Shown: positions 2,174 to 57,049, counted from the first letter of the stretch. The stretch is DNA of 64,000 nt from Sedimentisphaerales bacterium (GCA_016927855.1 JAFGLV010000145.1:1-64000); one strand, 5' to 3'. Program-made: numbers and translations. The notes: generated from the sequence alone by a model not told the origin.

Positions 2174-2222
2174 GGCGTGGTGAATGCTGGAAGGAATTTC
2201 TGCAGAATTCTTGTTTTTGTGC

Positions 2223-2267
2223 TTGCGTATTCTATTTATGTCGAATAGTATCGGGATAAATAGAATA
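2223..2267 (+). promoter_or_regulatory. Promoter and palindromic operator of the first BlaI-BlaR1 operon
   Basis: TATTCTATTTAT at 2228-2239 and ATAAATAGAATA at 2256-2267 form a perfect 12-bp inverted repeat with a 16-bp spacer. A third GAATA half-site lies between them at 2243-2247. A sigma-70-like promoter overlaps it: TTGCGT at 2223-2228, 17-bp spacer, TAGTAT at 2246-2251. A repressor bound here would cover the whole promoter, which fits autoregulation by the BlaI protein encoded immediately downstream. The site does not contain the TACA-N2-TGTA core of classical BlaI/MecI operators, so the assignment to this repressor is by position. Confidence 0.7.
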
Positions 2268-2279
2268 AGGAGCCATGAG

Positions 2280-2705
2280 ATGACGAAACCAGCCAGATCG
2301 CGGAAGGGCAGGCGAGCCAGAACGCCGGAGGAATTGACCGAAGCGGAGTGGGCCATCATGAAGGTCGTTTGGGAGAAGGAGCCCTGCACGGCCGGCACGG
2401 TCCAGGAAACGCTGGCCGGCAGCAAGGATTGGGCCTACAGCACCGTCAAGACGACGATGGACCGCATGGCGGAGAAGGGCTTCCTTGCCATCGAGAAGAT
2501 CCGCAACCTGCAACTGTTTCGCGCCAGCATCAGCGAGGTGCAGGCCAAGCGGGCGGAGTTTCGCAAGATGCTCAAGCGTGCCTTTGACGGGGCGCTGACC
2601 CCGATGATGCAATTCCTGATCGAGCACGAGGGGCTTTCCGCCGACGAAGCGTCGCAGTTGCGCCAGCTTGTGGACAAGACGGAAACCAAGAAGCGTGGTC
2701 GGTAA
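2280..2705 (+). CDS. BlaI/MecI-family transcriptional repressor
   Basis: A 141-residue winged-helix repressor. The family signature is clear: LTEAEWAIMKVVWEKEPCTA, then the recognition region WAYSTVKTTMDRMAEKGFL, then a C-terminal dimerisation region. Family repressors are inactivated by proteolysis when the partner BlaR1/MecR1 membrane protease is activated. The ATG at 2280 is preceded by AAGGAG (2267-2272) at 7-bp spacing; an in-frame start further upstream would lie inside the operator and is unlikely. The M56 gene follows 33 bp downstream. An arginine- and lysine-rich N-terminal tail of about 20 residues precedes the winged helix. Confidence 0.93.
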   Translation: MTKPARSRKGRRARTPEELTEAEWAIMKVVWEKEPCTAGTVQETLAGSKDWAYSTVKTTMDRMAEKGFLAIEKIRNLQLFRASISEVQAKRAEFRKMLKRAFDGALTPMMQFLIEHEGLSADEASQLRQLVDKTETKKRGR

Positions 2706-2738
2706 TCGAAACCGGGGATATGCGCGGAGGTTTCAACC

Positions 2739-5700
2739 ATGAATCAGCTCGTGATCTTCCTGAATGATAGCGGTAGGGCGTTCCGCGATTATGCCGGCGC
2801 CATGCTTGTGCAGACCGGCGCGCTGATGGCGGCACTGGCGCTCGTCGATCTGCTCATCCGCAAGCGCGTCCGAGCGTCCGTTCGCTATTGGCTGTGGATG
2901 CTCGTATTCGTCAAACTCGTCCTGCCGCCGACGCTGGCGCTACCGACCGGTGTTGGTTACTGGCTGGACGTCGAGACGCCTGCTGTTACGCCGGTCGCGG
3001 AAGAGCCTTTGCCCGTCGTGACGCCGCCGGTTTCTCCTCCCAGAGCAGTTTCACCGCTGCCGCGTGAGCCGATGGAGGTCTTGCCCGCGTCGCAGGTCTC
3101 CCCTGAGGCAATCGCGCCGACCGCAGCGGCCCCAGCGCTCACGTGGCAGGCGGTGGTCTTCGCCCTCTGGCTGGTTGGGCTCGTCGTATTCGGTCTGCTG
3201 CTCGTGCAACGTGCGTTCTTCGTGAGAGGTTTGATCGCCCAGAGCGACACGGCCGACGATGACCTGATGGAGACGCTGGAGCGATGCGCGCGGCAGATCG
3301 GCGTCGACCGAGGGATCGGACTGAGGGTGTCGCCCAACACGTTCAGCCCGGCCGTGTGCGGCCTGGTCCGGCCCACAATCCTGATCCCGGCTTCCCTGCT
3401 GGTGAGGCTCTCAGGTGAAAGCCTGCGGGCGGTCCTGATCCACGAGCTGGCCCACATCAAGCGCGGTGACCTGTGGGTGAACTTGGGCCAGACGCTCTTG
3501 CAGGTGGTCTACTTCTACAATCCGCTGGTCTGGGTGGCGCACGCGATCGTGCGGCGCGTCCGCGAGCAGGCGGTGGACGAGATGGTGCTCGTGGCTCTTG
3601 GCGCGGAGGCCAAGAGCTACAGCAAGACCCTGATTGACATTGCGGAGATGGCTTTCTTCCGAGCCAACCTGGCCTTACGCCTGATCGGCGTAGCCGAGTC
3701 GAAGAAGTCGTTAGAAGGAAGGATCAAACACATGTTGACCAGACCGATACCGAAGCGTGCGAGGATTGGATTCGCAGGGATCGCGGCGATTCTGATGACA
3801 GCGGCGGCACTGTTGCCGATGGCACGAGGGCAGAACAGCGAGCGTCGAAACGATGCTTCTGTCGCTCGCTTGCCCGGCGGTGTGACGGTTGAACTGCTGG
3901 GCGTTTGCAGTTGGCCGGTGGGAGGCCGGCGCTGCTGGAGGCCGGATGGAACGAAGCTCTCCGATGAGATCTATGCGGCCAAATCGAACACGCACCCTGG
4001 GCCGGGCGACTACGGATTCATGGTGAAAGTAACCGGGCCAGAAGACCTCGATATCCGGTGGCGCACCATCGAAGGATCGACGGGTTGGGAAGGCTCCTGC
4101 CAGGTCGAGGATGCGCAGGGCAGTGTTCTGGAGAATGGCACCGCGGCGATCTCCGACATGGAAGCGGGAAGAACGTCCACCTCCATTCGCATCGGCGTTG
4201 CCACCGGCGCGTGGGGCACGATATCGACCCATGACGGCGGGAGCATGCGTATCGGCCGTGGAACCGGCGTCCTGTGGTCGCAGGCCTTCGCGGATTCCGA
4301 CCGTATACATATCATCGCGTCTACCCAATGGCGCAAAGACCGTGCCGAGAGGATTGTCGCGGTTGATCTGGAGGGCACAGTACATTCGGGCTGGTGTGGA
4401 TCCGTTGCCTCGGGAAACGTCGACCAGTTCACGGCCCGTTTCCGCGACCTCAAGCTTAGCCAGATCAAGGAGTTTCAATTCCAGGTGCGTCCGTACGAAT
4501 GGGCCGAGTTCCGCGGAGTTTCGCTGCGACCTGGAACGCGAACGAACGTGCAGGTGATAGCTGGGCTGACTGACGAGGCCGAATACGCTCACGCTGTCGT
4601 CGAGGAGGGTGTTGGTTTCGATGGCCTTGTCGTTGGGGATCCCAACTGCACGGCCGAACTGATCAAGTCCAAGTTGGGAGAGCCCGAAAGGGAGACCAAG
4701 AGCCGGGAGACCGGGTGGTGGCTCAGCTACAAGGGAAGCTATGGTTTGGACTTCTGGCTGCGTCTGGATACGAATATGCTGGCAGAGATACGTCTCAACC
4801 GAGGATTCAAGGGACCCCTTCGTTCGGGCATTTCCATGGCTTCCACGAAGACCGATGTGTTTCATGTCTATGGCCCGCCGTTGAAAGAGGAAACCGTCCT
4901 CGATCTGACCAAGCACTTCGGCGATCAGATACTCTACACCCGGGCGGGCCTGCGCGGCAGATCGGAAAACAGCAAGATCTTCTACGGACAAAACGGGCTG
5001 CTGTTCTGGTTTGAAGGGGAGCAGATTCTGCAGATCGTGATCCACCCGAAGCAACCGCAGGAGAGAGAGAATGCAGGTGGACTGGGATCAGGTCAGGCAG
5101 TCGATGTCGAGTGGCGCACCGCATCGGGGACGCGGCTGGCGGAACTGGGCAAGGCGCTGATGATCTGGGCCAATGACCATGATGACACGTTTCCGGATAG
5201 TCTCGAAGACCTGCGGTCGGAGGTCGATCAGGACACGCTACAGTGGCTCCGAGAGCACGTGCAATACGTCGGCAAAGGCATGAAGGCCACCGACTATCCA
5301 GGGGAGGTACTGGCCTATGACAAGACGATGATGGCGGACGGGAATGGGACAAACGTCCTGTACCTTGACGCGCACGTTGCCTTCGAGGATTCGCAGCGGC
5401 TTGAACAGATCGGCATGGCGTTGGCGAGCGAGCCATCCGAAGCAGAGCTGGTCGAATCGGCGACGCGCTTGTCCGATTTGGGCAAGGCGCTGCTGTTCTA
5501 TGCCAACGAACACGATGACAGACTGCCCGACAGTCTGATGGGTGTGAAGGAGTACAGCGGCGTGGGATTCGCCTGGCTGTACAGCAACGTGGCGTACCTC
5601 GGCAAAGGTGTGACCGTGGCGAACAACCCCGAGCGCCCGGTCGCTTACGACAAAACGCTCATCGAAAGCGGCACAGGTACGAACGTGTTGCACCTCAACA

Positions 5701-7700
5701 CTGCGGTAACGTTCGAGCACCCGGATCGATTGGCGGAGCTTGGCATCCGCCGCGACGTCCAATCGCCTCTGGCTGGGCGGGTCGAGTCCGCACGCCGGTT
5801 CGCGAACCTGGGCAAGGCGCTGCTAGTGTACGCGGTAGATCACGGAACGTTTCCTGACAGCCTCGATCAAATGACGTCCTATCTCCGTCCCGAAGATCTC
5901 GCATGGCTCAAGGCGAATACCGAATACGCAGGCCAGGGCAAGACGGAGCGTATGCCTCCCGACACCGTGATGGCCTACGACAAGACGCTGCTTGAAGGGA
6001 ACCTCGGCACCAACGTCCTGTATCTGGATTGCCACGTGGCCTTTGAGACTCCGGAGCAGCTCGAACGGGTTGGCCTCATTTCCAGGAAGAGCGCCATGCA
6101 GCGTCTCCGCTTTCTGGGGCTGGCCGCGATCATGTACGCGCATGAGCACGACAGTACACTCGCAGATGACCTGGGTTCGTTGAGGCCGTATACAGGTGAT
6201 GAAGCCAGGTTTGCCTGGATGCGAGACAACTTCGTGTATCTGGGTAAGGGGGCCAAGTTGGAAGTCCGGGATCCTGCGGATAAACCTCTGGCGTACTGGA
6301 GGACAGGCCCCGTCGATTCCGATGGCACCGCCGTGGTCTTCTTCGATGGTCACGTCGAGTTTGTCTCGCCCGAGAGGTTGGCACAGTTCGGTCTTTCGTC
6401 CATCCCGTTCGAGTCGGCATCTGTGGCGAATTCGCATGAAGGTGTCTGGATTACGTTCCTGCCGCGCAGTCCGATCCGGAGCTTAGCCGAGTATCACCAT
6501 GCGATTCAGGTCAGCCCCGTGCCGGCGCCCCCTGGGTACAGGTCTGTTCCCTTTCCCGCGTGTGATCTTGAAATTCGCCGGGCGGCCGACCAGCAACGAG
6601 TGGCAAGAATCTACTTCCCTGAGAGTGGCTGGACACCGTCCGGGCTGACGCCAGAAATGAGACGACGGATCGGAGAATTGCCCGACGGAGAATATCTTCT
6701 GGCCTTCTGCTATGGCAATGCTCGATGCTCCAACGCGGCCCGTCTGAGGCTCGATTCCCAATACGATCCAAGTGCCGAGCCAACGCTGAGCCTGGTTCCT
6801 TTGCCGGTGCCGCCGGGTGGGAGTCCTATGCTCCTTGGCATCCGCGCCGTCAGGCCGAGCCCCATCGATCCCGAACTCACGAACCAGGCGGTGGCCTTTC
6901 CCTCGCTCGTCGTCGATGGAACTGAGAGACGCCTGACCCAAATGGTGTGGGTTGGGCCGGTAGGCCCGCTTCGGCCGGGCCAGCAGGAGGTGCGGATTCT
7001 CCGCCTGAGCGAATACGAACCTACGATCGAGCCAGGACGCGCCCACAGTGCCAAGGCGCGCGTGGGCAAGTACGAGTCGGCACTTGTGCAGATACCGGCT
7101 GCCGACGATCTCGCCAGGCAATGGGACGAGGCGACGAAGAACCTGGCGCCTTACGAGCCACCGTCTGCGGTTTTGCAGGGCAAGGTGGTCGGAACGGATG
7201 GTCTTGCCGGCAGGGGCTATGAAGTGTGTCTGTTCGGCGACAAGGGTGAGCGCATCGTTGAAGTTGCCGCTGAAGACGGCTCTTACGATTTCGCCAATAT
7301 CCCTTCGGGCCCATACCAACTCATCTGCAATCCCAAGGGCCGAGGGCAGCCCTGTGTCACGATCAACTCGGTTACGGTCACAGCCGGTCAGTCCCGAGTG
7401 CTGAATGTCAGTCTCGAAGGACGCTACCGCCTGGCCGGGACGGTTGTTCGTGAAGACGGCAGCGCTGTAGCGAGAATGGATGTGACACTAACCTGCGAAG
7501 ACCCCGACGCTCAAGCCGAGTTCCAGGATTTTGTACTCACCGACGAGCAAGGGCGGTTTGAACTGGGCTCACCCTATTCGCAGGTCACTTACGTAGGCGT
7601 TAACGGCAGGAGAATCAGAGGCTCAATGCCACAGCTTTCGACGGTCCCCACAGGTCTGGATATCACCCTGCGTGACGACGGAAGAGGCGCTGCTCTGTAG
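2739..7700 (+). CDS. Giant BlaR1-type M56 metallopeptidase A with pseudopilin-like repeats
   Basis: A 1,653-residue membrane protease-receptor; BlaR1/MecR1 proteins have about 585-600 residues. GGAGG lies 8 bp before the ATG. The N-terminal M56 part has membrane segments near residues 22-40, 50-68, 135-155 and 343-363 and the zinc motif HELAH at 235-239 (LIHELAHIKRGD). After the fourth segment, where BlaR1 has its penicillin-binding domain, it carries a beta-rich region (about 380-790, with VTVELLGVC and FQFQVRPYEWAEF), four modules of about 100 residues (about 796-1220) each ending in a variant of VLYLDxHVAFE or FFDGHVEF, a further unknown region, and two carboxypeptidase-regulatory-like beta domains (about 1480-1640). 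No SxxK penicillin-binding signature was seen in the C-terminal part. By analogy it cleaves the upstream BlaI after sensing an extracytoplasmic signal; the ligand is unknown. Confidence 0.88.
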   Translation: MNQLVIFLNDSGRAFRDYAGAMLVQTGALMAALALVDLLIRKRVRASVRYWLWMLVFVKLVLPPTLALPTGVGYWLDVETPAVTPVAEEPLPVVTPPVSPPRAVSPLPREPMEVLPASQVSPEAIAPTAAAPALTWQAVVFALWLVGLVVFGLLLVQRAFFVRGLIAQSDTADDDLMETLERCARQIGVDRGIGLRVSPNTFSPAVCGLVRPTILIPASLLVRLSGESLRAVLIHELAHIKRGDLWVNLGQTLLQVVYFYNPLVWVAHAIVRRVREQAVDEMVLVALGAEAKSYSKTLIDIAEMAFFRANLALRLIGVAESKKSLEGRIKHMLTRPIPKRARIGFAGIAAILMTAAALLPMARGQNSERRNDASVARLPGGVTVELLGVCSWPVGGRRCWRPDGTKLSDEIYAAKSNTHPGPGDYGFMVKVTGPEDLDIRWRTIEGSTGWEGSCQVEDAQGSVLENGTAAISDMEAGRTSTSIRIGVATGAWGTISTHDGGSMRIGRGTGVLWSQAFADSDRIHIIASTQWRKDRAERIVAVDLEGTVHSGWCGSVASGNVDQFTARFRDLKLSQIKEFQFQVRPYEWAEFRGVSLRPGTRTNVQVIAGLTDEAEYAHAVVEEGVGFDGLVVGDPNCTAELIKSKLGEPERETKSRETGWWLSYKGSYGLDFWLRLDTNMLAEIRLNRGFKGPLRSGISMASTKTDVFHVYGPPLKEETVLDLTKHFGDQILYTRAGLRGRSENSKIFYGQNGLLFWFEGEQILQIVIHPKQPQERENAGGLGSGQAVDVEWRTASGTRLAELGKALMIWANDHDDTFPDSLEDLRSEVDQDTLQWLREHVQYVGKGMKATDYPGEVLAYDKTMMADGNGTNVLYLDAHVAFEDSQRLEQIGMALASEPSEAELVESATRLSDLGKALLFYANEHDDRLPDSLMGVKEYSGVGFAWLYSNVAYLGKGVTVANNPERPVAYDKTLIESGTGTNVLHLNTAVTFEHPDRLAELGIRRDVQSPLAGRVESARRFANLGKALLVYAVDHGTFPDSLDQMTSYLRPEDLAWLKANTEYAGQGKTERMPPDTVMAYDKTLLEGNLGTNVLYLDCHVAFETPEQLERVGLISRKSAMQRLRFLGLAAIMYAHEHDSTLADDLGSLRPYTGDEARFAWMRDNFVYLGKGAKLEVRDPADKPLAYWRTGPVDSDGTAVVFFDGHVEFVSPERLAQFGLSSIPFESASVANSHEGVWITFLPRSPIRSLAEYHHAIQVSPVPAPPGYRSVPFPACDLEIRRAADQQRVARIYFPESGWTPSGLTPEMRRRIGELPDGEYLLAFCYGNARCSNAARLRLDSQYDPSAEPTLSLVPLPVPPGGSPMLLGIRAVRPSPIDPELTNQAVAFPSLVVDGTERRLTQMVWVGPVGPLRPGQQEVRILRLSEYEPTIEPGRAHSAKARVGKYESALVQIPAADDLARQWDEATKNLAPYEPPSAVLQGKVVGTDGLAGRGYEVCLFGDKGERIVEVAAEDGSYDFANIPSGPYQLICNPKGRGQPCVTINSVTVTAGQSRVLNVSLEGRYRLAGTVVREDGSAVARMDVTLTCEDPDAQAEFQDFVLTDEQGRFELGSPYSQVTYVGVNGRRIRGSMPQLSTVPTGLDITLRDDGRGAAL

Positions 7701-47947: not shown

Positions 47948-49555
47948 TTACTCGCGGAGGGATTGCCAGGGATGGTCGGTCCCGTTCGCCTTGGGCGTGG
48001 CCATGGTGATAGGCATGGTGACGGAAATCCCCTTGTCGCTACGAACGGCCTGCGCAAGCTTCACCTTGCTCGCTCGAATCGGCTCGGTCACCAGTTCGGG
48101 CACGCTGAACGTCCAAAGACACGAATCATAGAAGCGCGGGTCCTTCTGGGGCAGAAGGATCGGTTTGTGAACGCGGCCCTCTTCATCCATGTACGCCAGA
48201 TAGGTCCGGGTGAAGATGTGGCTGAGCCGCTTGCTGCTGAAGGCGATCCAGCGTCCGTTGCTGGAGAAGCTATGCCACGATTCGCTCGCGTCGCTGTTGG
48301 CGTCGAGCCGTCGCAGTTCAGCCCGTCCCGTCCGCGCAAACGCATCCAGGTCCAACAGGCACAGGTCACTGCTGGAGCGATAGACCGGAAAGCAGCCATA
48401 GTCACACGTTGTTAGCAGCAGCCAGCGACCGTCGGGGCTGATGCGAGGCAGCAGGAGCGATCGGTCTGCCTCCTGCGCCGAGAGCACCGTCTCGACCTGT
48501 CCCCACGTGTCGGTGTCAACGTCGTACGAGACGCGCACCAGGTCGTAGTGGACATCTTCGAGCCGCTGGGGAACCGCGTTGAGACCTTCCCAGGTCAGCG
48601 GGGCGCTGCAGAAATACAGGTGGCGCCCATCGGGCGACCAGGCGGGATAGGTTTCAAGCCGATCCTTACGCGCCAGGGCCGGCGCTGTTTTCAACGACTT
48701 CGCGTCGGTGCGGTAGTAGGTCATCACCGAGTCGCAGTCGAACACGTCGCGGATTTCGCTGGCGGCCGAGCGAAAGACCTGGTGCACCTGGTTGACGGAG
48801 AACGCCACGACCTTTCCGCTCGGATGCCAGGAGGTGTAGCCGAATTTCGTTGCGACCTTGCTGACCCGCTCCCCTTCGACGAGCACGGCCGGACTGCCGT
48901 ACGCGCCGCTGCGGATTGCGATGGACATGGTGTCGGTTCCATGGTTGCAGAACGCATGGCAGTTCAGACACCAGTCCTCGAGATGGTCGTTGGTCAGTAT
49001 AGTCCGCTCGTCGAAGCTGCGCAGATCGCGCTGATAGATCCCCATCTCCCGCCAGGTGGAATGTCCGGGCCGAATCCTGCGGTATACGAGGTAGCCATCG
49101 ATGTCCTCGGACGCGATCGTGTTCGTAATGGTGGCAAACCGCCTCCAGCGCTCGGACGCGCCGTCGGCGTCAGACCGGACGAAGACATCGATGTCCAAGC
49201 GACCCCCACGATTGCTTTCGAGCAGCCGGTGCCAGCGATCCTGCGGGATGCCAATCTCGTGCGTCTTGCTGAAAATCTCAATGGGCTCACCTTGGGCTCC
49301 GGAGATGCGGACGAAGCAGCCTGTTCCTTCCTCCTCGACCAGGAAGTTCAGCGGCGCGATATTCGGCGGCAGTGTCACACCACTGTAATCGGGTCGAATC
49401 CTGGGCAGACTGTTCACGGCCTCGCAGGGTTCTTCCGGCCGCGTGGCACCGCCAAATCCGTGGGTGACGACAGTAAGACCCGCCGCACAAAGGGCCAGCA
49501 CGCCCACTATGCCTATCGTTCTTGCACTGGGTTTTCCAGGTCTTTTCATGTGCAT
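47948..49555 (-). CDS. TolB-like beta-propeller protein with one CxxCH haem motif
   Basis: A 535-residue protein with an N-terminal signal/anchor segment (IGIVGVLALCAAGLTVV). A haem c attachment motif C196-L-N-C199-H200 is present (EDWCLNCHAFCNHG). Propeller blades follow: FGYTSWHPSGKVVAFSVN, YPAWSPDGRHLYFCSA, LLPRISPDGRWLLLTT, SWHSFSSNGRWIAFSSK. The combination of a single haem-c-like motif and a TolB/PD40 propeller is found next to DUF6057 genes in other phyla as far as I recall. Function unknown, probably periplasmic. It begins 5 bp after the DUF6057 stop codon. ATG 49549 is an alternative start. Confidence 0.82.
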   Translation of the reverse strand: MHMKRPGKPSARTIGIVGVLALCAAGLTVVTHGFGGATRPEEPCEAVNSLPRIRPDYSGVTLPPNIAPLNFLVEEEGTGCFVRISGAQGEPIEIFSKTHEIGIPQDRWHRLLESNRGGRLDIDVFVRSDADGASERWRRFATITNTIASEDIDGYLVYRRIRPGHSTWREMGIYQRDLRSFDERTILTNDHLEDWCLNCHAFCNHGTDTMSIAIRSGAYGSPAVLVEGERVSKVATKFGYTSWHPSGKVVAFSVNQVHQVFRSAASEIRDVFDCDSVMTYYRTDAKSLKTAPALARKDRLETYPAWSPDGRHLYFCSAPLTWEGLNAVPQRLEDVHYDLVRVSYDVDTDTWGQVETVLSAQEADRSLLLPRISPDGRWLLLTTCDYGCFPVYRSSSDLCLLDLDAFARTGRAELRRLDANSDASESWHSFSSNGRWIAFSSKRLSHIFTRTYLAYMDEEGRVHKPILLPQKDPRFYDSCLWTFSVPELVTEPIRASKVKLAQAVRSDKGISVTMPITMATPKANGTDHPWQSLRE

Positions 49556-49560
49556 GCCAA

Positions 49561-51432
49561 TCAGTTCACTCCGCCCGGCCGCCCATAGACGAAGTAGAAG
49601 AAGTAGTCGCCGGCATGATACTTCACTTGTTCCGCCCTTGCCGCCTGTTCGTTGCTTTGGTAGCGACCCATGGTCCCCATGAAATGTTCGAGGCGCTGAT
49701 GCACGTCGGCGCGCGGCCCATAGCCGCCCAGGTAGAGGGGCTGTTTGCTCATGTTCACGTGAATCAGCGCGGCCTCCTCGAAGTGTGTCGGCAGCGCGGT
49801 ATACCCGAGCCGCTTGAATTCGCCAAGCCGCTCGACGAACTTGGGCAATTGCCGGGTCGTGAGATACCAGGCCATCAGGTACTCGAATGCCATCCGGTTC
49901 GTGGGATTCTTCTCGAGCAGGCAGCGCAGCGTCCTCTCGGGCGACGAAGTCACCGACGGGAAATCGCTGTCCAGCGCGATCGAGCGCAGATGCTGCACCC
50001 GCGCATCCGTGCCCAGGTTAGGATCGCACTGCAGCAGGTCCAGGTACTGCCTGGCCCAGGCTCGATGAAAGAGGGTATGGCTCAGGGTGCCGAGGTACAC
50101 TCGCGCCGTACCGATGTTGCCTTTGACCATGTTCGCCAGCGCCAGGCGCTGCAATACCATCGGACGCTCGCCCAGCCCCTCCAGGCACTCCGTCAGGCCG
50201 TGCTCGGCCCCGTTTATAAAGCCGATCTCCAGGTAGAGATCGGCGGCGTCCCAGAACGCCTTCTTTCCCTCCGTCTCGGTCAAGAACAGGTACTCGGGAC
50301 GTTGCGGCCACTTGAACATCTCGTTGCCCAGCCGGCCGGTGTGGTACAAGGCGCAGTCGATCGCGTGCATCACCGAAGGATCGTTGAGGTGAGCCGCGCC
50401 GGTGGCAATGACCTCGGTCCACTCTTCGTGGTAGGCATAGTAATCCACCGCGAATTGGGCCTTCGTTCTGTGGTCGAGGCTGCCGAAGGCGACCGTTGTT
50501 GCGACCGCCAGCAGGAGTGCCGTCAGCGCCGCCCAGCGCCAACCTGGCGACCGCGCATAACGCCAGAGTGCCCCTTTGCGTTTTGCGCGTTTGCGCTTTG
50601 GGGGAGTGCCTTTGCCTCGACCGTATCGCGCCCATAGAGCCCGTGCGAGTCCCGCTGCTACCATCGTTGCCGGCGTGAGCAGATACATCGTATACACGAG
50701 CTCCACGGACTGGCGCCGGCCCTCGTAGCCGAGCAGTTTCCAGGAGATCGGCAGCAAGCGTGAATAGGCGTCGGCCGGGTAGATGTCGAAGGCGAGCACT
50801 CCGACCCCATAGGGCAGGGTGGCCGCGACCACGACGTATACCAACCCAAACCTCCACCGTCGCGTCGAGATCAACTCGTGAATGATACACACCACCGCGA
50901 AGAGCAGGAAGGCGCCACCCGCGACGTAGTAGCACAGAAACGACAAGGCAAGGAAAGCAGCCGGTCCGACCCAGAGCGTTCTTCTGGTCGCCAAGGCGAC
51001 ATAGATACAGGCGAGCGTCAGTGCGGCCAGCAGCGCGGTGGTCGTCGGCACATAGTACGTATACCGGCCGTAGAGAGCCAGCAACAGCAGCGCAGGGACA
51101 TACCCCACGACCGAGAGTCTCTTGAAACCCGACGAGGCTAGCAGGAAGGCAACGGACAGATAGAATGCCCAAGCCTGCGCGGTGACGACCAGCGCTCCCA
51201 GCCACGAGTAGTAGAACAACTGCGAAGCGAAAGCCGCGACGTATTCGGCGGGTCCGCCGGGATAGAACAGGTGCTCGATGAGGAACAGCCGGGTGGTGTA
51301 GAAGGCCGGGAAGTTCGTGATGATCCCTGCTCCGTGAAAGATAAGACACGGCTCGACCACCAGCCAGAGATACAGATAGAACGCGATGAAGAACACCGCC
51401 ATCGTGGTGACTGTGCGCCAACAGGGCGTCAT
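49561..51432 (-). CDS. DUF6057-family polytopic membrane protein
   Basis: A 623-residue protein with about ten hydrophobic segments in the first 340 residues (TMAVFFIAFYLYLWLVV, SWLGALVVTAQAWAFYLSVA, LLLLALYGRYTYYVP, FLALSFLCYYVAGGAFLLFA and others), a basic cytoplasmic loop (KRKRAKRKG) and a C-terminal helical, TPR-like soluble part. It matches the DUF6057 style, whose function is not known. ATG 51432 (MTPCWRT) is chosen; longer readings add a non-membrane arginine-rich leader. The gene is divergent from the second BlaI gene and is followed immediately by the TolB-like haem-motif gene. Confidence 0.8.
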   Translation of the reverse strand: MTPCWRTVTTMAVFFIAFYLYLWLVVEPCLIFHGAGIITNFPAFYTTRLFLIEHLFYPGGPAEYVAAFASQLFYYSWLGALVVTAQAWAFYLSVAFLLASSGFKRLSVVGYVPALLLLALYGRYTYYVPTTTALLAALTLACIYVALATRRTLWVGPAAFLALSFLCYYVAGGAFLLFAVVCIIHELISTRRWRFGLVYVVVAATLPYGVGVLAFDIYPADAYSRLLPISWKLLGYEGRRQSVELVYTMYLLTPATMVAAGLARALWARYGRGKGTPPKRKRAKRKGALWRYARSPGWRWAALTALLLAVATTVAFGSLDHRTKAQFAVDYYAYHEEWTEVIATGAAHLNDPSVMHAIDCALYHTGRLGNEMFKWPQRPEYLFLTETEGKKAFWDAADLYLEIGFINGAEHGLTECLEGLGERPMVLQRLALANMVKGNIGTARVYLGTLSHTLFHRAWARQYLDLLQCDPNLGTDARVQHLRSIALDSDFPSVTSSPERTLRCLLEKNPTNRMAFEYLMAWYLTTRQLPKFVERLGEFKRLGYTALPTHFEEAALIHVNMSKQPLYLGGYGPRADVHQRLEHFMGTMGRYQSNEQAARAEQVKYHAGDYFFYFVYGRPGGVN

Positions 51433-51767
51433 TCTGTCTGGCTCGCCAAGCGGCTCGTTGGACTGTGCATTGTACAAACGCTGCGTTCTCCGTTCTATGT
51501 GCCGAATAGCGCGCTGGCCGGTCGCGCCCCGGAAGCGCCGGGTTGAAGGCCAGGTTGCTCTGACCACCTCAACCAAGCTCGGACGCGCAGTATATCTATC
51601 GACAATCGGACGACGCCAATCCAATTGCCAGGATTCCGCCTTGGTGGGCCGGTGCGAGGCTTCACACAGTCACAAAAAAATATGAAGAAATCGCAGATTC
51701 TGCTTGACTTTCGTGTTACAGATGTAACATTTATATGTGTTACAGGCGTAATATTAAGGAGACGATC
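51433..51767. other. Divergent intergenic region between DUF6057 and the second BlaI gene (335 bp)
   Basis: The right part holds the promoter and two operators of the BlaI gene. The left part shows no clear start signals for the DUF6057 gene other than AT-rich stretches (GTATATCTATCG near 51590) and a small TTGTACAA palindrome. No coding sequence recognised. Confidence 0.55.
51704..51752 (+). promoter_or_regulatory. BlaI/MecI-type promoter with two TACA-N2-TGTA operators
   Basis: TTGACT (-35) at 51704-51709. Operator 1, GTTACA-GA-TGTAAC at 51715-51728, has perfect 6-bp arms and is the classical BlaI/MecI site; it lies between the -35 and the AT-rich -10 region (51725-51736). Operator 2, GTTACA-GG-CGTAAT at 51739-51752, differs at one base of the core, 24 bp downstream of the first. 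AAGGAG at 51756-51761 follows. Confidence 0.85.
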
Positions 51768-52178
51768 ATGAAAAAGGTGCCAAGAATCTCGGAGGCGGAG
51801 TGGGAGGTGATGAAGGTCTTCTGGAGCCATTCGCCGCGCACGGCCAACGATGTGGTCGAGGTGCTCTCGAAGCAGACCCATTGGAAGCGAGAGACCATCC
51901 GGACTCTCATCAATCGTCTCGTACAGAAGAAGGCCCTCGGCTTCAGGAAGCAGGGGCGCCAGTACGATTACTATTCGCTCGTAGCCGAGGCCGACTGCAT
52001 CAAAGCCGAGACGCGTTCGCTGCTGAGGCGGTTCGGCGGCGGACCAATCGAGCCGATGCTCGCCGCGTTCGTCGAGGAACGCCAACTCACGCCGGAGCAG
52101 ATCGAACGTCTGAAGCACATCCTCGACGGCAGCGACCCCAGCGGCGGACTGGGCGAGACCAAGAGGCACTCGTCGTGA
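51768..52178 (+). CDS. BlaI/MecI-family transcriptional repressor
   Basis: A 136-residue winged-helix repressor (ISEAEWEVMKVFWSHSPRTA, then HWKRETIRTLINRLVQKKAL, with wing GFRKQGRQYDYYS). ATG 51768 is 6 bp after AAGGAG; a reading from 51735 would start inside operator 2. Its operators match the family consensus, so autoregulation is very likely. The M56 partner gene starts 14 bp downstream. The other BlaI of the window has a different, arginine-rich N-terminus and a different operator, so the two pairs should not cross-talk. Confidence 0.95.
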   Translation: MKKVPRISEAEWEVMKVFWSHSPRTANDVVEVLSKQTHWKRETIRTLINRLVQKKALGFRKQGRQYDYYSLVAEADCIKAETRSLLRRFGGGPIEPMLAAFVEERQLTPEQIERLKHILDGSDPSGGLGETKRHSS

Positions 52179-52192
52179 CGAAAGGGTAATCT

Positions 52193-55100
52193 ATGGAAGC
52201 TTACGAAGCGAGTCTGGCTGCATTCCTGCAATGGCTGCTGAAGACGACCCTTCAAGGCAGCCTGCTGATCTGCCTGATCGTGGCGATCAAACTGATCCTG
52301 CGAGAGCGGCTACCGGCGCGATGGCAGTATGCCCTCTGGCTCATTCTGCTGGTCCGTCTCGCTCTGCCGTGGACGCCGCAGAGCCGCATCAGTATCTACA
52401 ACCTGGTCCCTCGCTCATCGCCCTCGCGCGACATGACAGTGGCGGCCGGTGTACATCAAGGTGAGGGAGGTGCCCAGCCAGGCGGTCCCGGTCAAGAGAG
52501 AAGCATCGACCACGCAGGTGGCGTCGACGAGGGGCTCGCCTCTGAACAGACCCAGGCCGGGCCTTCCGAACCTGTGGCGCGTCTGCCGGCGTCTGCGGTG
52601 TCGTCCAAGGGAATGACCTGGGACATAGGCAACCGGGTCTACGTACTCGCCACCGCAGCGCTGCTGTGGCTGGCGGGTACCGCCATTCTCGCGGCCTGTG
52701 TTCTGGTCAAGGCCGTGCGACTGTGGCTGGGCGTTCGTTCCGAGCGGCCGGTGACCGATCAGCAGGTCCTCGATCTTCTGGAGGACTGCAAGCTGCAGAT
52801 GCGCGTCCGGACCCTGGTGGGAGTGGTTGTCACGGACAAGGTTGCGACGCCCGCCCTTTTCGGCTTCGTTCGGCCCCGCATTCTCCTGCCCCAGGGTCTG
52901 ATCGAAACGCTCGATCTGGACGAGCTGCACGACGTCTTTCTTCACGAATTGGCCCACTTGAAGCGCCGTGACATCTACTTGGCGTGGCTGGTGTGCCTGT
53001 TGCAGTTGGTCCACTGGTTCAACCCCCTGATGTGGTATGCGTTTCGCCGGATGCGGGCCGACCAGGAGATAGCGGCCGATGCCTTGGCCCTTGCTTCCGC
53101 TGGAGCGGGAGAGTCACACCGGTATGGCCGGACTATTGTCAAGCTCCTCGAACGATTCTCTCGGCCTCAGTACTTGCCTTCTCTGGCCGGGATTCTGGAG
53201 AACCCCTCTCATGTCGAAAGGAGAATGGCCATGATTGCCCAGTTCAAGAACAACTCGTATCGCTGGTCCGCGGCGGGAATCGGCATCATAGTGGTGCTGG
53301 GTGCCATATGTATGACCGACCCGACACGAGCCACAGTGTCGGCGAGTTTTGCACCGCAAGACAAAGCCCCGATGACGATGCGCCTGGTGCAGAAGACCAC
53401 TGGATACGTGAGCGTATCGCCCGATGGGAGATACCTCTGCGATTGTGACACGTTTCTAACGGAAGGAATCATTACCATTCGGGAGTTGGCCACCGGCGCG
53501 CAACGCACGATAAAGCCGACCAAAAGCGCTCCGGACGAGAACGGTCCTGTATATCCCGTCATCTCACCGGACGGCAAGACCGTTGCATATGGTGTAGGCC
53601 GAAAGGGCACGGCGTATCTGTGTCTCATTGGTGCGGACGGCTCCGGGCAGCGTGACCTATGTCCCGCGGTGAGGTCGATCCAATGGTTCCCGGATGGCCG
53701 TCGCATACTGGGAGTTCGGAAGGCAGGGGACCCCAAAGAGATAGAGATCGTGTCCGTCTCCGCCTCAGATGGCTCTGTACAGGCAATCAAGGCACTGACT
53801 GGCGACTTCTACAACACAACCATTAGACTCTCCCCGGATGCGAAGTACGTCGCCTACGAGCTGTCTTCCAGGGATGCCCCCGCCAAACGCGATATCTTCG
53901 CAACCGAGATTGGTTCCCAGCGGGAAACGCTTCTCGTAGGGCATCCGGCTAACGACAAGCTGCTGGGTTGGACACCGGATGGGCGGCACCTCCTGTTCGC
54001 CAGTGATCGTATGGGGGGATGGAGCGTTTGGCTCTTACCCGTCGCCCAGGGCGAGGCACAGGGCATGGCGAAGTTGGTCTCGCGGGACATAGGCGATGTC
54101 GCGCCCGTAGGTTTTACAGAGAACGGCTCCTACTGCTATCGGCTGGCATACAATTATGGTAACGTCTACACGGCCACGGTCAATTTCACCACGGGTCAGC
54201 TCCTGTCGATGCCGGCTCCCTTGGAGGCCACCGGCTTCAACCTTGGTGCAGACTGGTCGCCTGACGGCAAGTATCTTGCCTATCGGTCGCAGCCAGCCCC
54301 AGTCGTTGCTCCCGAGCCGGGCGTGATCCGCATTCGTTCGCTGGCCACCGGCGAGGAACGTGAGCTTCTTCACAAGATTCCGACGCTTTTCCGGTGTATC
54401 CGCTGGTCGCCAGACGGACGTTCGCTGCTGGCGTCGCAACTGATTGCCTACGAACCTGACAAGGCCGTATGGATGAGACGTGTGTGTCGCATTGACGTGG
54501 ATACGGGTGATACTACCGTTCTGCTGGAGAAGGAAGACAATCCGGTGTGGATGGCGGAGTTGTCTCCCGACGAGAAAGCACTGTATTACTCGGGAGGGGC
54601 TATCGTTCGCAGGCAACTCGAGACGGGCGAGGAGAAAGCGATCTTTACGTTTCCACAGAACGCGCCCGGGGCTGGTTGGGCGATTTCACCGAACGGGGAA
54701 TTCATCGCCACCGGCTGCAATGAGGGAACGAAGAAGAGTCAATGGGAGGGAGGCGTCAAGAAGGTTCTCCTGATCCCTGCGCAAGGCGGGCCAGCTAGGG
54801 AACTGGTCCGCTGGGAAGAGCCCACCGGCATGCTCACCAACGTTGCCTGGTCGAGAGACAGTAAGACCGTCCTATTCACGCTCTACAAGCAGTCCGTCAC
54901 AGGAGGCAACGCACAGATGACAGATGAGTTCTGGCAGGTGCCGGCGGATGGTGGCGAACCCCGGAAGATCACGGAAACGGAACTCGGTATGTGTTATGGC
55001 GTGCGGGTCCACCCGGATGGCCAACGGATCGCCTTCTCGGCGGCAGGCCGCCGTCACGAACTGTGGGCGATGGAGAACTTTCTGCCGGTGGTCGCGACCA

Positions 55101-57049
55101 CGGGCGCCGCGCCGGCGCCGGCCGGCCGGGTAGCCGAGCAGGAACAGGCACGTTTTCCGGCGGAGAGCAATGTCTTCGTTGACCCGAACACCGGGGTCCG
55201 GTTCACGAGGTTCAAGGCCCTCGCCGGTCCCAGCGACGTCGAGAACCCGCGGTTCCTGTGTGTCTCACCGAGTGGGAGGTTCCTGCTGTCCGGCGTGCAT
55301 GTTATCCCTCTTGACGGCCGCGCGTCTTTCGATTTGGTGGATATCCCCGATAATGGGCGTCAAGGATCACTGTCGCCCGACGGCCGAAAGGTAGTGTACA
55401 GTCACGACGAGGCATTGTGGCTGATCGAGATTGATCCGGATACCGGGCGGCCGATCGGCTCACCCAGGAAACTCCTGGACAAGCAGTCCTATGTTACAGG
55501 CGGCTGGTCCCGGGACTCCCAGAGGATTACGTTTCTCCGGGCAGACAACCAGCCTGGTGACGCACGGGTATACAGTTGGTGGACCCTCAGCCTAGAGGGC
55601 GGTGAACCTTCCCCGCTGACGGATCCGCACAGCTTTGGCCTCCTCGCGCCCGACGGCAAGACGGTGGCCTACCAAGCGCGGACATCCACGGACGGTTCTT
55701 CGCGTGCTTCCTCCGCCTCCCTCCTCGTGAGACCGGTAGCTGGTGGAGAGGCCAGGATGGTCCTTGATGGCGGACCCGCCTTGTCTCCCGCTGCCTGGTC
55801 AAGCGATAGCGAATGGCTGGTATCGGGCGTCTGGGGAGGTCTCGAGTTCATTCGCATCGCGGACGGACGCCATGTGCAGGTGACCACGCCGGGCAACCTG
55901 ATTGGCGGGCATCGGCCGGGAAAGAAGTTGCTTTTCTACAAGCCTTCGTACGAGCGTAGGATCTCGGTGAAACTGCTTTCTGTCGCCGGTGGTCCACCTG
56001 CGACAATTGGATGGCCCAGCCTATTCTTCCGCCGAGGACCCGGCAATCCCTGGTGGGCCCAGGACTCTCGTAGCATTCTGGTAGAGGGCACGCGAGAAGA
56101 AGATCAGTGGGGCCTTTGGGTCGTTCCCTTGGACGGGAAGGACCCCAGGCCGTTGGCAGTCGACACGCCGCTGTGTCGCAGTGCGATTGTCAGGCTGTTC
56201 TCTCCCGACGGCAGTCACCTCCTGCTGTTCACGGAGCCAGGACAGGGCAAGTGGGACCTCTGGACGGTGCCGATCTCCCAGGTGCAGAGGAAATCCACCG
56301 GTCCGGCCATCAAGATTTTCAGTGGGATGGTCCCACCCTCTCGTGGAAGTGATTGGGCCTACCTGGATACCTGGTCGCCGGATGGCAGCAAGGTCGCCTT
56401 CGTCCATGACTGGGATATTTGGGTGGCTGGCGCGGATGGCAAGAGCGTGCAGCAACTGACCAAGACGCCCGAGAGAGAGGGGTGGCCCATCTGGTCACCC
56501 GATGGCACGATGATCGGCTTCAGCATCCGATCGGGAGATGAGACGCCCGCTGGTGCGCTGGCTTCACCCGGTCTGAAGATCTGCGTTATGCCGGCTTCGG
56601 GTGGCCCAACGAAGGTCATCGCGGATTTTGCGCACGCCCCCATCATTGACGGGCCCAAATGGGCGTGGTTCCCCGGTGGCAAGAAACTGGCGATTGTGTG
56701 TAGTGAGGAAGGAGTCATTGCTGAGTTCGCGATTGCCGGTGGTGATCGCAGGACGTTGGTGCGTCTCAAGGATCTGGAGATGGAGCACGCAAGCTGGCTG
56801 AGATGGTCCCCGGACGGTCGTCTCCTCGCCTTTCAGGGTCGCAGCTCCACGGACACGAAGTTCTATGTCTATCAGGTGGATGACGCCAGACTACAGCGTT
56901 TGAGCGACGAATATGTCCCTCCCTGCTACTGGTCGCCCGACGGCAAATGGATCTGTTATTACACCCAAGAGACCGTCAAGACTCGTCCCGAAGGCATCGT
57001 GTGGGAGATGGACGTGGACGAGGCCGTGACCAGGCTGGCGAACCAATGA
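52193..57049 (+). CDS. Giant BlaR1-type M56 metallopeptidase B with double beta-propeller sensor
   Basis: A 1,618-residue membrane protein. M56 part: membrane segments near residues 15-37, 45-60, 152-178 and 357-378, zinc motif HELAH at 251-255 (VFLHELAHLKRRDIY) and WFNPLMWYAFRRMRADQEIA after it. The C-terminal 1,230 residues, which in BlaR1 would be the extracellular penicillin-binding domain, are two TolB/WD40-like (PD40) propellers, about 385-970 and 990-1618, with many blades of the pattern W-SPDG-(R/K)-(Y/L)-L-(A/L) (SPDGRYLC, WTPDGRHLLFAS, WSPDGKYLAYRS, WSPDGRLLAFQG). No penicillin-binding motif was seen. It should cleave the upstream BlaI in response to an unknown extracytoplasmic ligand, perhaps a protein or glycan. 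Confidence 0.9.
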   Translation: MEAYEASLAAFLQWLLKTTLQGSLLICLIVAIKLILRERLPARWQYALWLILLVRLALPWTPQSRISIYNLVPRSSPSRDMTVAAGVHQGEGGAQPGGPGQERSIDHAGGVDEGLASEQTQAGPSEPVARLPASAVSSKGMTWDIGNRVYVLATAALLWLAGTAILAACVLVKAVRLWLGVRSERPVTDQQVLDLLEDCKLQMRVRTLVGVVVTDKVATPALFGFVRPRILLPQGLIETLDLDELHDVFLHELAHLKRRDIYLAWLVCLLQLVHWFNPLMWYAFRRMRADQEIAADALALASAGAGESHRYGRTIVKLLERFSRPQYLPSLAGILENPSHVERRMAMIAQFKNNSYRWSAAGIGIIVVLGAICMTDPTRATVSASFAPQDKAPMTMRLVQKTTGYVSVSPDGRYLCDCDTFLTEGIITIRELATGAQRTIKPTKSAPDENGPVYPVISPDGKTVAYGVGRKGTAYLCLIGADGSGQRDLCPAVRSIQWFPDGRRILGVRKAGDPKEIEIVSVSASDGSVQAIKALTGDFYNTTIRLSPDAKYVAYELSSRDAPAKRDIFATEIGSQRETLLVGHPANDKLLGWTPDGRHLLFASDRMGGWSVWLLPVAQGEAQGMAKLVSRDIGDVAPVGFTENGSYCYRLAYNYGNVYTATVNFTTGQLLSMPAPLEATGFNLGADWSPDGKYLAYRSQPAPVVAPEPGVIRIRSLATGEERELLHKIPTLFRCIRWSPDGRSLLASQLIAYEPDKAVWMRRVCRIDVDTGDTTVLLEKEDNPVWMAELSPDEKALYYSGGAIVRRQLETGEEKAIFTFPQNAPGAGWAISPNGEFIATGCNEGTKKSQWEGGVKKVLLIPAQGGPARELVRWEEPTGMLTNVAWSRDSKTVLFTLYKQSVTGGNAQMTDEFWQVPADGGEPRKITETELGMCYGVRVHPDGQRIAFSAAGRRHELWAMENFLPVVATTGAAPAPAGRVAEQEQARFPAESNVFVDPNTGVRFTRFKALAGPSDVENPRFLCVSPSGRFLLSGVHVIPLDGRASFDLVDIPDNGRQGSLSPDGRKVVYSHDEALWLIEIDPDTGRPIGSPRKLLDKQSYVTGGWSRDSQRITFLRADNQPGDARVYSWWTLSLEGGEPSPLTDPHSFGLLAPDGKTVAYQARTSTDGSSRASSASLLVRPVAGGEARMVLDGGPALSPAAWSSDSEWLVSGVWGGLEFIRIADGRHVQVTTPGNLIGGHRPGKKLLFYKPSYERRISVKLLSVAGGPPATIGWPSLFFRRGPGNPWWAQDSRSILVEGTREEDQWGLWVVPLDGKDPRPLAVDTPLCRSAIVRLFSPDGSHLLLFTEPGQGKWDLWTVPISQVQRKSTGPAIKIFSGMVPPSRGSDWAYLDTWSPDGSKVAFVHDWDIWVAGADGKSVQQLTKTPEREGWPIWSPDGTMIGFSIRSGDETPAGALASPGLKICVMPASGGPTKVIADFAHAPIIDGPKWAWFPGGKKLAIVCSEEGVIAEFAIAGGDRRTLVRLKDLEMEHASWLRWSPDGRLLAFQGRSSTDTKFYVYQVDDARLQRLSDEYVPPCYWSPDGKWICYYTQETVKTRPEGIVWEMDVDEAVTRLANQ

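Follow-up and report, generated by a model that had tools for sequence, protein, structure and literature searches.

The operon at 51704-57049 of the window (the whole 64,000-nucleotide stretch of Sedimentisphaerales DNA that was analysed) probably encodes a receptor of the BlaR1 type whose ectodomain has been exchanged, with a long array of beta-propellers standing where BlaR1 has its penicillin-binding sensor. In our best reading, it represents a family of BlaR1-type receptors of the Planctomycetota that carry exchangeable ectodomains and are encoded in insulated, self-controlled operons. To our knowledge, BlaR1 and MecR1 are known almost only as beta-lactam resistance switches, and no description of receptors such as these was found in the open-access literature, to which our search was confined, subscription journals lying outside it. 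Judged by the sequences of its repressor, operator and protease, the locus is of the BlaI-M56 kind, and we file it as a variant of that kind. Nothing in it resembles a beta-lactam sensor, because the penicillin-binding domain, a defining feature of BlaR1 and MecR1, was absent from the features found; profile searches of the 1,618-residue protein yielded no match to a penicillin-binding family.

The promoter of the operon was read directly in the sequence. A -35-like hexamer, TTGACT (51704-51709, + strand), is followed within the promoter spacer by operator 1, the perfect dyad GTTACAGATGTAAC (51715-51728), and, 24 bp downstream from it, by operator 2, the imperfect dyad GTTACAGGCGTAAT (51739-51752), both listed without strand. 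The original prediction of two TACA-N2-TGTA operators was correct for the first of these, and the second, TTACAGGCGTAA (51740-51751), departs from it by one mismatch. A ribosome-binding site AAGGAG (51757-51762, +) precedes the repressor gene, which starts with ATG at 51768 and extends to 52178 on the + strand, and the receptor gene (52193-57049, +) begins 14 bases after it. A generic sigma-70 scan produced no full match at the 51704 promoter, despite the conserved TTGAC, which an alignment of about 18 related promoters places at the -35-like position in most of them. Over these promoters the operator architecture is also kept: TTGAC is followed in the spacer by the first dyad, and the second comes 23-26 bp later. 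Upstream from the pair, at 47948-51624, lie a divergent DUF6057 gene and a gene whose PD40 product bears a CLNCH motif; they were considered as conserved neighbours and rejected, having no counterpart in related loci.

The 136-residue product of 51768-52178 is, on the evidence of profile and structure-based alignments, a true BlaI/MecI-family repressor, of the MecI type that had been predicted. It matches the winged-helix and dimerisation domain Penicillinase_R (PF03965) with an E-value of 2.6e-34 over 114 of the 115 model positions, and the MecI structures 1okr and 1sd6 align along its length with E-values of about 2e-21. In the alignment, A100|F101 sits opposite the N101|F102 cleavage position of MecI, and phenylalanine at P1' of this site is almost invariant across BlaI proteins (PMC9834060). 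By analogy, cleavage would occur before Phe101. The P1 residue is alanine rather than the asparagine of MecI, and this was counted against the BlaR1-type reading.

Residue-by-residue comparison supports a BlaI-BlaR1-like regulatory half. The 1,618-residue open reading frame matches Peptidase_M56 (PF05569) with an E-value of 1.7e-59, and its M56 core, defined by alignment as residues 1-350 (52193-53242, +), comprises TM1-TM3 and the zinc-protease domain, predicted to be cytoplasmic. The HELAH motif lies at residues 251-255 (52943-52957, +), as originally noted. Cryo-EM of Staphylococcus aureus BlaR1 identified as key residues H201/H205, D210, E242xxxD246, Y261, I265 and R294, and located the autocleavage bond at S283|F284, with a bulky hydrophobic residue at P1' (PMC9834060). 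The corresponding residues of the window protein, H251/H255, D260, E292xxxD296, Y311, I315 and R344, are displaced by a constant offset of +50, such that both the HEXXH ... EXXXD signature (H251ELAH255, E292, D296) and all of the accessory residues (D260, Y311, I315, R344) are present. With the same spacing I334 falls opposite F284, at the candidate P1' position. Of the 15 M56 proteins that the genome encodes, 14 keep the catalytic residues, D260, Y311 and R344 and are hydrophobic at the positions of I315 and I334; the one that does not is a short protein on contig C110 with the sequence HQLAH. A short M56 protein that has HQLAH where HEXXH is expected, lacks a neighbouring BlaI gene and is possibly inactive was recorded at L038:7992-8909. 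These correspondences support, at the sequence level, a protease half that is BlaR1-like at each position compared. Hydropathy and structure prediction place helices at the four positions expected from the BlaR1 topology; TM4 covers residues 356-376 by hydropathy (53258-53320, +) and 356-373 as a predicted helix. By analogy with BlaR1, the protease domain would lie inside the cytoplasm and the C-terminal part outside it. The 'site-2-independent' label in the original prediction is redundant, M56 proteases not being site-2 proteases.

Beyond the M56 core extends a stretch of about 1,230 residues made up of PD40-type propeller (profile search, E 4.7e-43), divided into two cassettes that we term X and Y. 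Cassette X (residues 388-968; 53354-55096, +) has about 12 blades by motif counting and a terminal MENFLP motif, while cassette Y (residues 976-1618; 55118-57046, +), reading NVFVDPNTG ... WEMDVDEAV, has 12-13. In an AlphaFold2 model of residues 1-985 (pLDDT 80.9), X contains about 46 predicted strands; cassette Y was modelled at a pLDDT of only 60.5. The best Foldseek matches were exclusively propeller proteins, including the tandem ones LRP6, tricorn and AIP1, with no penicillin-binding fold among them. Comparison over the whole chain kept the TM-scores low (0.2-0.4), and the number of propellers is therefore based on blade and strand counts and not on superposition. Since these counts are about twice the capacity of one propeller, each cassette likely holds two, giving four in all. 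The claim that propellers replace the penicillin-binding domain is supported by sequence, AlphaFold2 and Foldseek, and the two propellers originally proposed (about 385-970 and 990-1618) were an undercount, the cassettes holding about 24-25 blades. The window protein scores 134 bits with the TolB model, below its cut-off of 343, and profile searches found no kinase domain in it.

The source assembly, a draft of 5.34 Mb in 180 contigs that is 87% complete, contains 15 M56 genes, 14 of which are paired with BlaI genes. One other pair is located within the window and consists of a paralogous BlaI repressor (2184-2705, +, longest ORF; PF03965 E 3.9e-30) and an M56 protein of 1,653 residues with a C-terminal CarboxypepD_reg domain (2739-7700, +); upstream from this pair (2184-7700) a different operator-like palindrome was seen. 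The C-terminal modules in the genome include PD40 (two proteins), CarboxypepD_reg, ankyrin, LRR, SnoaL/DUF4440, LysM with GspD N0, and secretin-like domains, and AhpC/TSA is among the domains in which other pairs end. A further M56 protein of the genome, 2,923 residues long, combines Clp_N repeats and CarboxypepD_reg with a right-handed beta helix (L036:8046-16817), and M56 proteins with long C-terminal arrays of ankyrin or leucine-rich repeats were noted at L034:4959-8501 and L037:7732-10641. Expansions of long M56 genes are widespread across the Planctomycetota. The repressor and the protease core evolve together as one unit: a mirror-tree comparison of the identity matrices of 34 BlaI-M56 core pairs yielded r = 0.92, a value which partly reflects the relatedness of the genomes and was reached in none of 2,000 permutations, and the 13 pairs compared from the window's own genome alone gave r = 0.80.

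The distribution of operator sequences suggests that the pairs control themselves. In the 5.34-Mb assembly, TTACANNYGTAA occurs at two places, both in the window promoter, and GTTACANNTGTAAC at a single site, operator 1. The sequence TACANNTGTA occurs at 16 sites, eight in BlaI promoters and eight inside coding ORFs; a wider regulon was considered and rejected, all eight of the sites away from the pairs falling within coding ORFs. Searches of the genome for exact sites located no operator outside BlaI promoters except within coding ORFs, and no beta-lactamase or mecA-like target gene under operator control. Among 41 genomes, paired dyads were found directly at a BlaI gene in 18 of the 21 loci checked, and a control pattern gave 0. 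Across 60 genomes, GTTACANNTGTAAC occurs at nine places with BlaI directly downstream, and at loci lacking BlaI it lies inside ORFs (three) or is intergenic (one). The lineage of L196-L198 carries a different palindrome in its promoter. Because operators are found at the pairs' own operons and the palindrome of this lineage differs, the pairs look self-controlled and insulated between lineages. In one related genome from this order (L168:1552-2587), the gene after BlaI under paired dyads is not M56 but reads like an ECF sigma factor.

Comparison of relatives revealed that the cassettes are traded as units, both among M56 receptors and with putative kinase receptors. Behind an M56 core, X occurs alone (L042, L192), doubled (L043, L130, L131) or joined to Y, as in the window protein, and Y occurs alone (L129, L196-L199); the search for the same fusion in related genomes uncovered several combinations of X and Y. 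The doubled X-X gene L043 stands in a chromosome-level record, CP070806, and in a second M56 protein of the window's own genome (L033) propellers lead into the beginning of Y. A search of 298 genomes of the class gave strong matches to either cassette in the window's own family only. Y is found on two M56 lineages only about 30% alike, being attached to a close core, 68% identical to that of the window, in L129, and to cores only 25-31% identical in L196-L198. Conversely, M56 cores 44-75% identical to the window core carry X, Y, PD40 repeats of other kinds and a number of unrelated modules, some of the module labels, such as LamG-like, having been assigned by reading the sequence. At one chromosomal address, beside hisA and a nucleoside hydrolase gene, the window has X-Y and L042, whose contig ends at hisA, has X, while in L197 Y is combined with a core, a repressor and an operator that all differ. 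The hisA and nucleoside hydrolase genes were rejected as functional partners; they mark this address in relatives and give no sign of a shared function. Also beside hisA, at a contig end, Y is split over two ORFs in L200:1-1964, through gene decay or an assembly error.

Outside the M56 proteins, a Ser/Thr kinase (L195:5705-8752; Pkinase E 4.2e-45) has cassette X as its C-terminal part, where it follows a membrane-span-like segment and is 31% identical to the window X and 41% to a copy linked to TPR repeats. An ECF sigma gene is located directly upstream from the kinase gene (L195:5033-8752). The TPR-linked copy is C-terminal in a TPR protein (L194) that starts with a hydrophobic, signal-like stretch and is not a receptor; X is thus not confined to receptors, and this counts against the receptor reading. 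Ser/Thr kinases of the Planctomycetota carry periplasmic WD40 or TPR arrays (PMC11032199). Given these arrays and the presence of X in a putative kinase receptor, an input role for the propellers is favoured, and the sensing role proposed in the original prediction gains indirect support, X belonging to a family that includes a putative kinase ectodomain.

As no other target is recognisable, the propellers may instead be the output of the system. They would then be the regulated product, an antirepressor fused to a periplasmic effector, with induction raising the amount of propeller and the signal sensed elsewhere, in the TM2-TM3 loop or the membrane. We regard this as unlikely, but it is the most serious of the competing explanations: the operators occur only at the operons themselves, leaving no clear output but the C-terminal part, binding or enzyme-like domains (SnoaL, AhpC/TSA, LysM, secretin-like) stand at the ends of other pairs, and X exists also in the TPR-X protein with its signal-like segment. 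However, an input better explains why X is shared with a kinase receptor, and AxA sites show no enrichment after TM4 (21 of 42 against 19 expected), so that release of the C-terminal part by signal peptidase was rejected.

Propellers are also general protein-binding platforms, and the C-terminal parts of paralogues include ankyrin and LRR protein-binding repeats; the array could on these grounds be a passive scaffold for partner proteins, with induction by general envelope stress. We consider this improbable, as so many ectodomains on closely similar cores would be odd for one general stress. That the 1,618-residue reading frame is artefactual, or arose by two genes joining by chance, a concern raised by the draft, 180-contig state of the assembly, is very improbable indeed: the frame is open throughout 52193-57049, and misassembly or chance fusion is contradicted by the relatives, including the X-X gene in CP070806 and the passage from propellers into Y in L033.

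For the BlaR1-type receptor that we favour, the following mechanism can be proposed by analogy. BlaI would repress its own operon by occupying the two dyads that overlie the promoter. The M56 protein would span the membrane four times, with the zinc protease cytoplasmic and the propeller array periplasmic. A ligand, probably a macromolecule or an envelope component, would bind or release the propellers, and the signal would travel through TM4 and a self-cleaved loop. The activated protease would then cut BlaI before Phe101 and the operon would be derepressed, such that the response includes more receptor. Searches for exact operator sites revealed no target gene beyond the operon, so that a counterpart of the BlaZ output is lacking; this counts against the reading, as does the low pLDDT of cassette Y.

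BlaR1/BlaI and MecR1/MecI of S. aureus and Bacillus licheniformis share with the window pair the repressor family, the operator type, the M56 core with its catalytic and accessory residues, the repressor phenylalanine and the gene neighbourhood, and the four TM segments and a hydrophobic residue at the candidate autocleavage P1' position are predicted in the window protein as well. They differ in carrying a penicillin-binding sensor where the window protein has propeller cassettes. Moreover, unlike in those systems, no beta-lactamase or mecA-like target was found here and the source genome holds 14 parallel pairs. A BlaR1 homologue of Mycobacterium tuberculosis has an M56 core without the penicillin-binding sensor (PMC9834060); there the sensor is missing, whereas the window protein carries over 1,200 residues of propeller in its place. 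The propeller Ser/Thr kinases are similar in combining a cytoplasmic enzyme, a membrane span and propellers predicted to be periplasmic, but the receiver here is predicted to be an M56 protease acting on BlaI and not a kinase. With TolB and the N-terminal propellers of tricorn, the likeness lies in PD40/TolB-type blades and tandem propellers of similar length, while the score remains far below the TolB cut-off.

More tentatively, and in our view less likely than not, a common stock of ectodomain cassettes may serve two unrelated receivers, M56-BlaI and Ser/Thr kinase-ECF sigma, with each M56 receptor controlling only its own operon and the amount of receptor or ectodomain constituting the response. 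On the reading that we favour, the same repressor-protease core acts as a general receiver that bears diverse ectodomains, 14 times over in a single genome, and each repressor lineage has operators of its own. If right, this would set BlaR1 signalling in a wider frame, provide natural sensor swaps for the study of signal transfer across the membrane, and point to a large and little-described class of receptors in the Planctomycetota.
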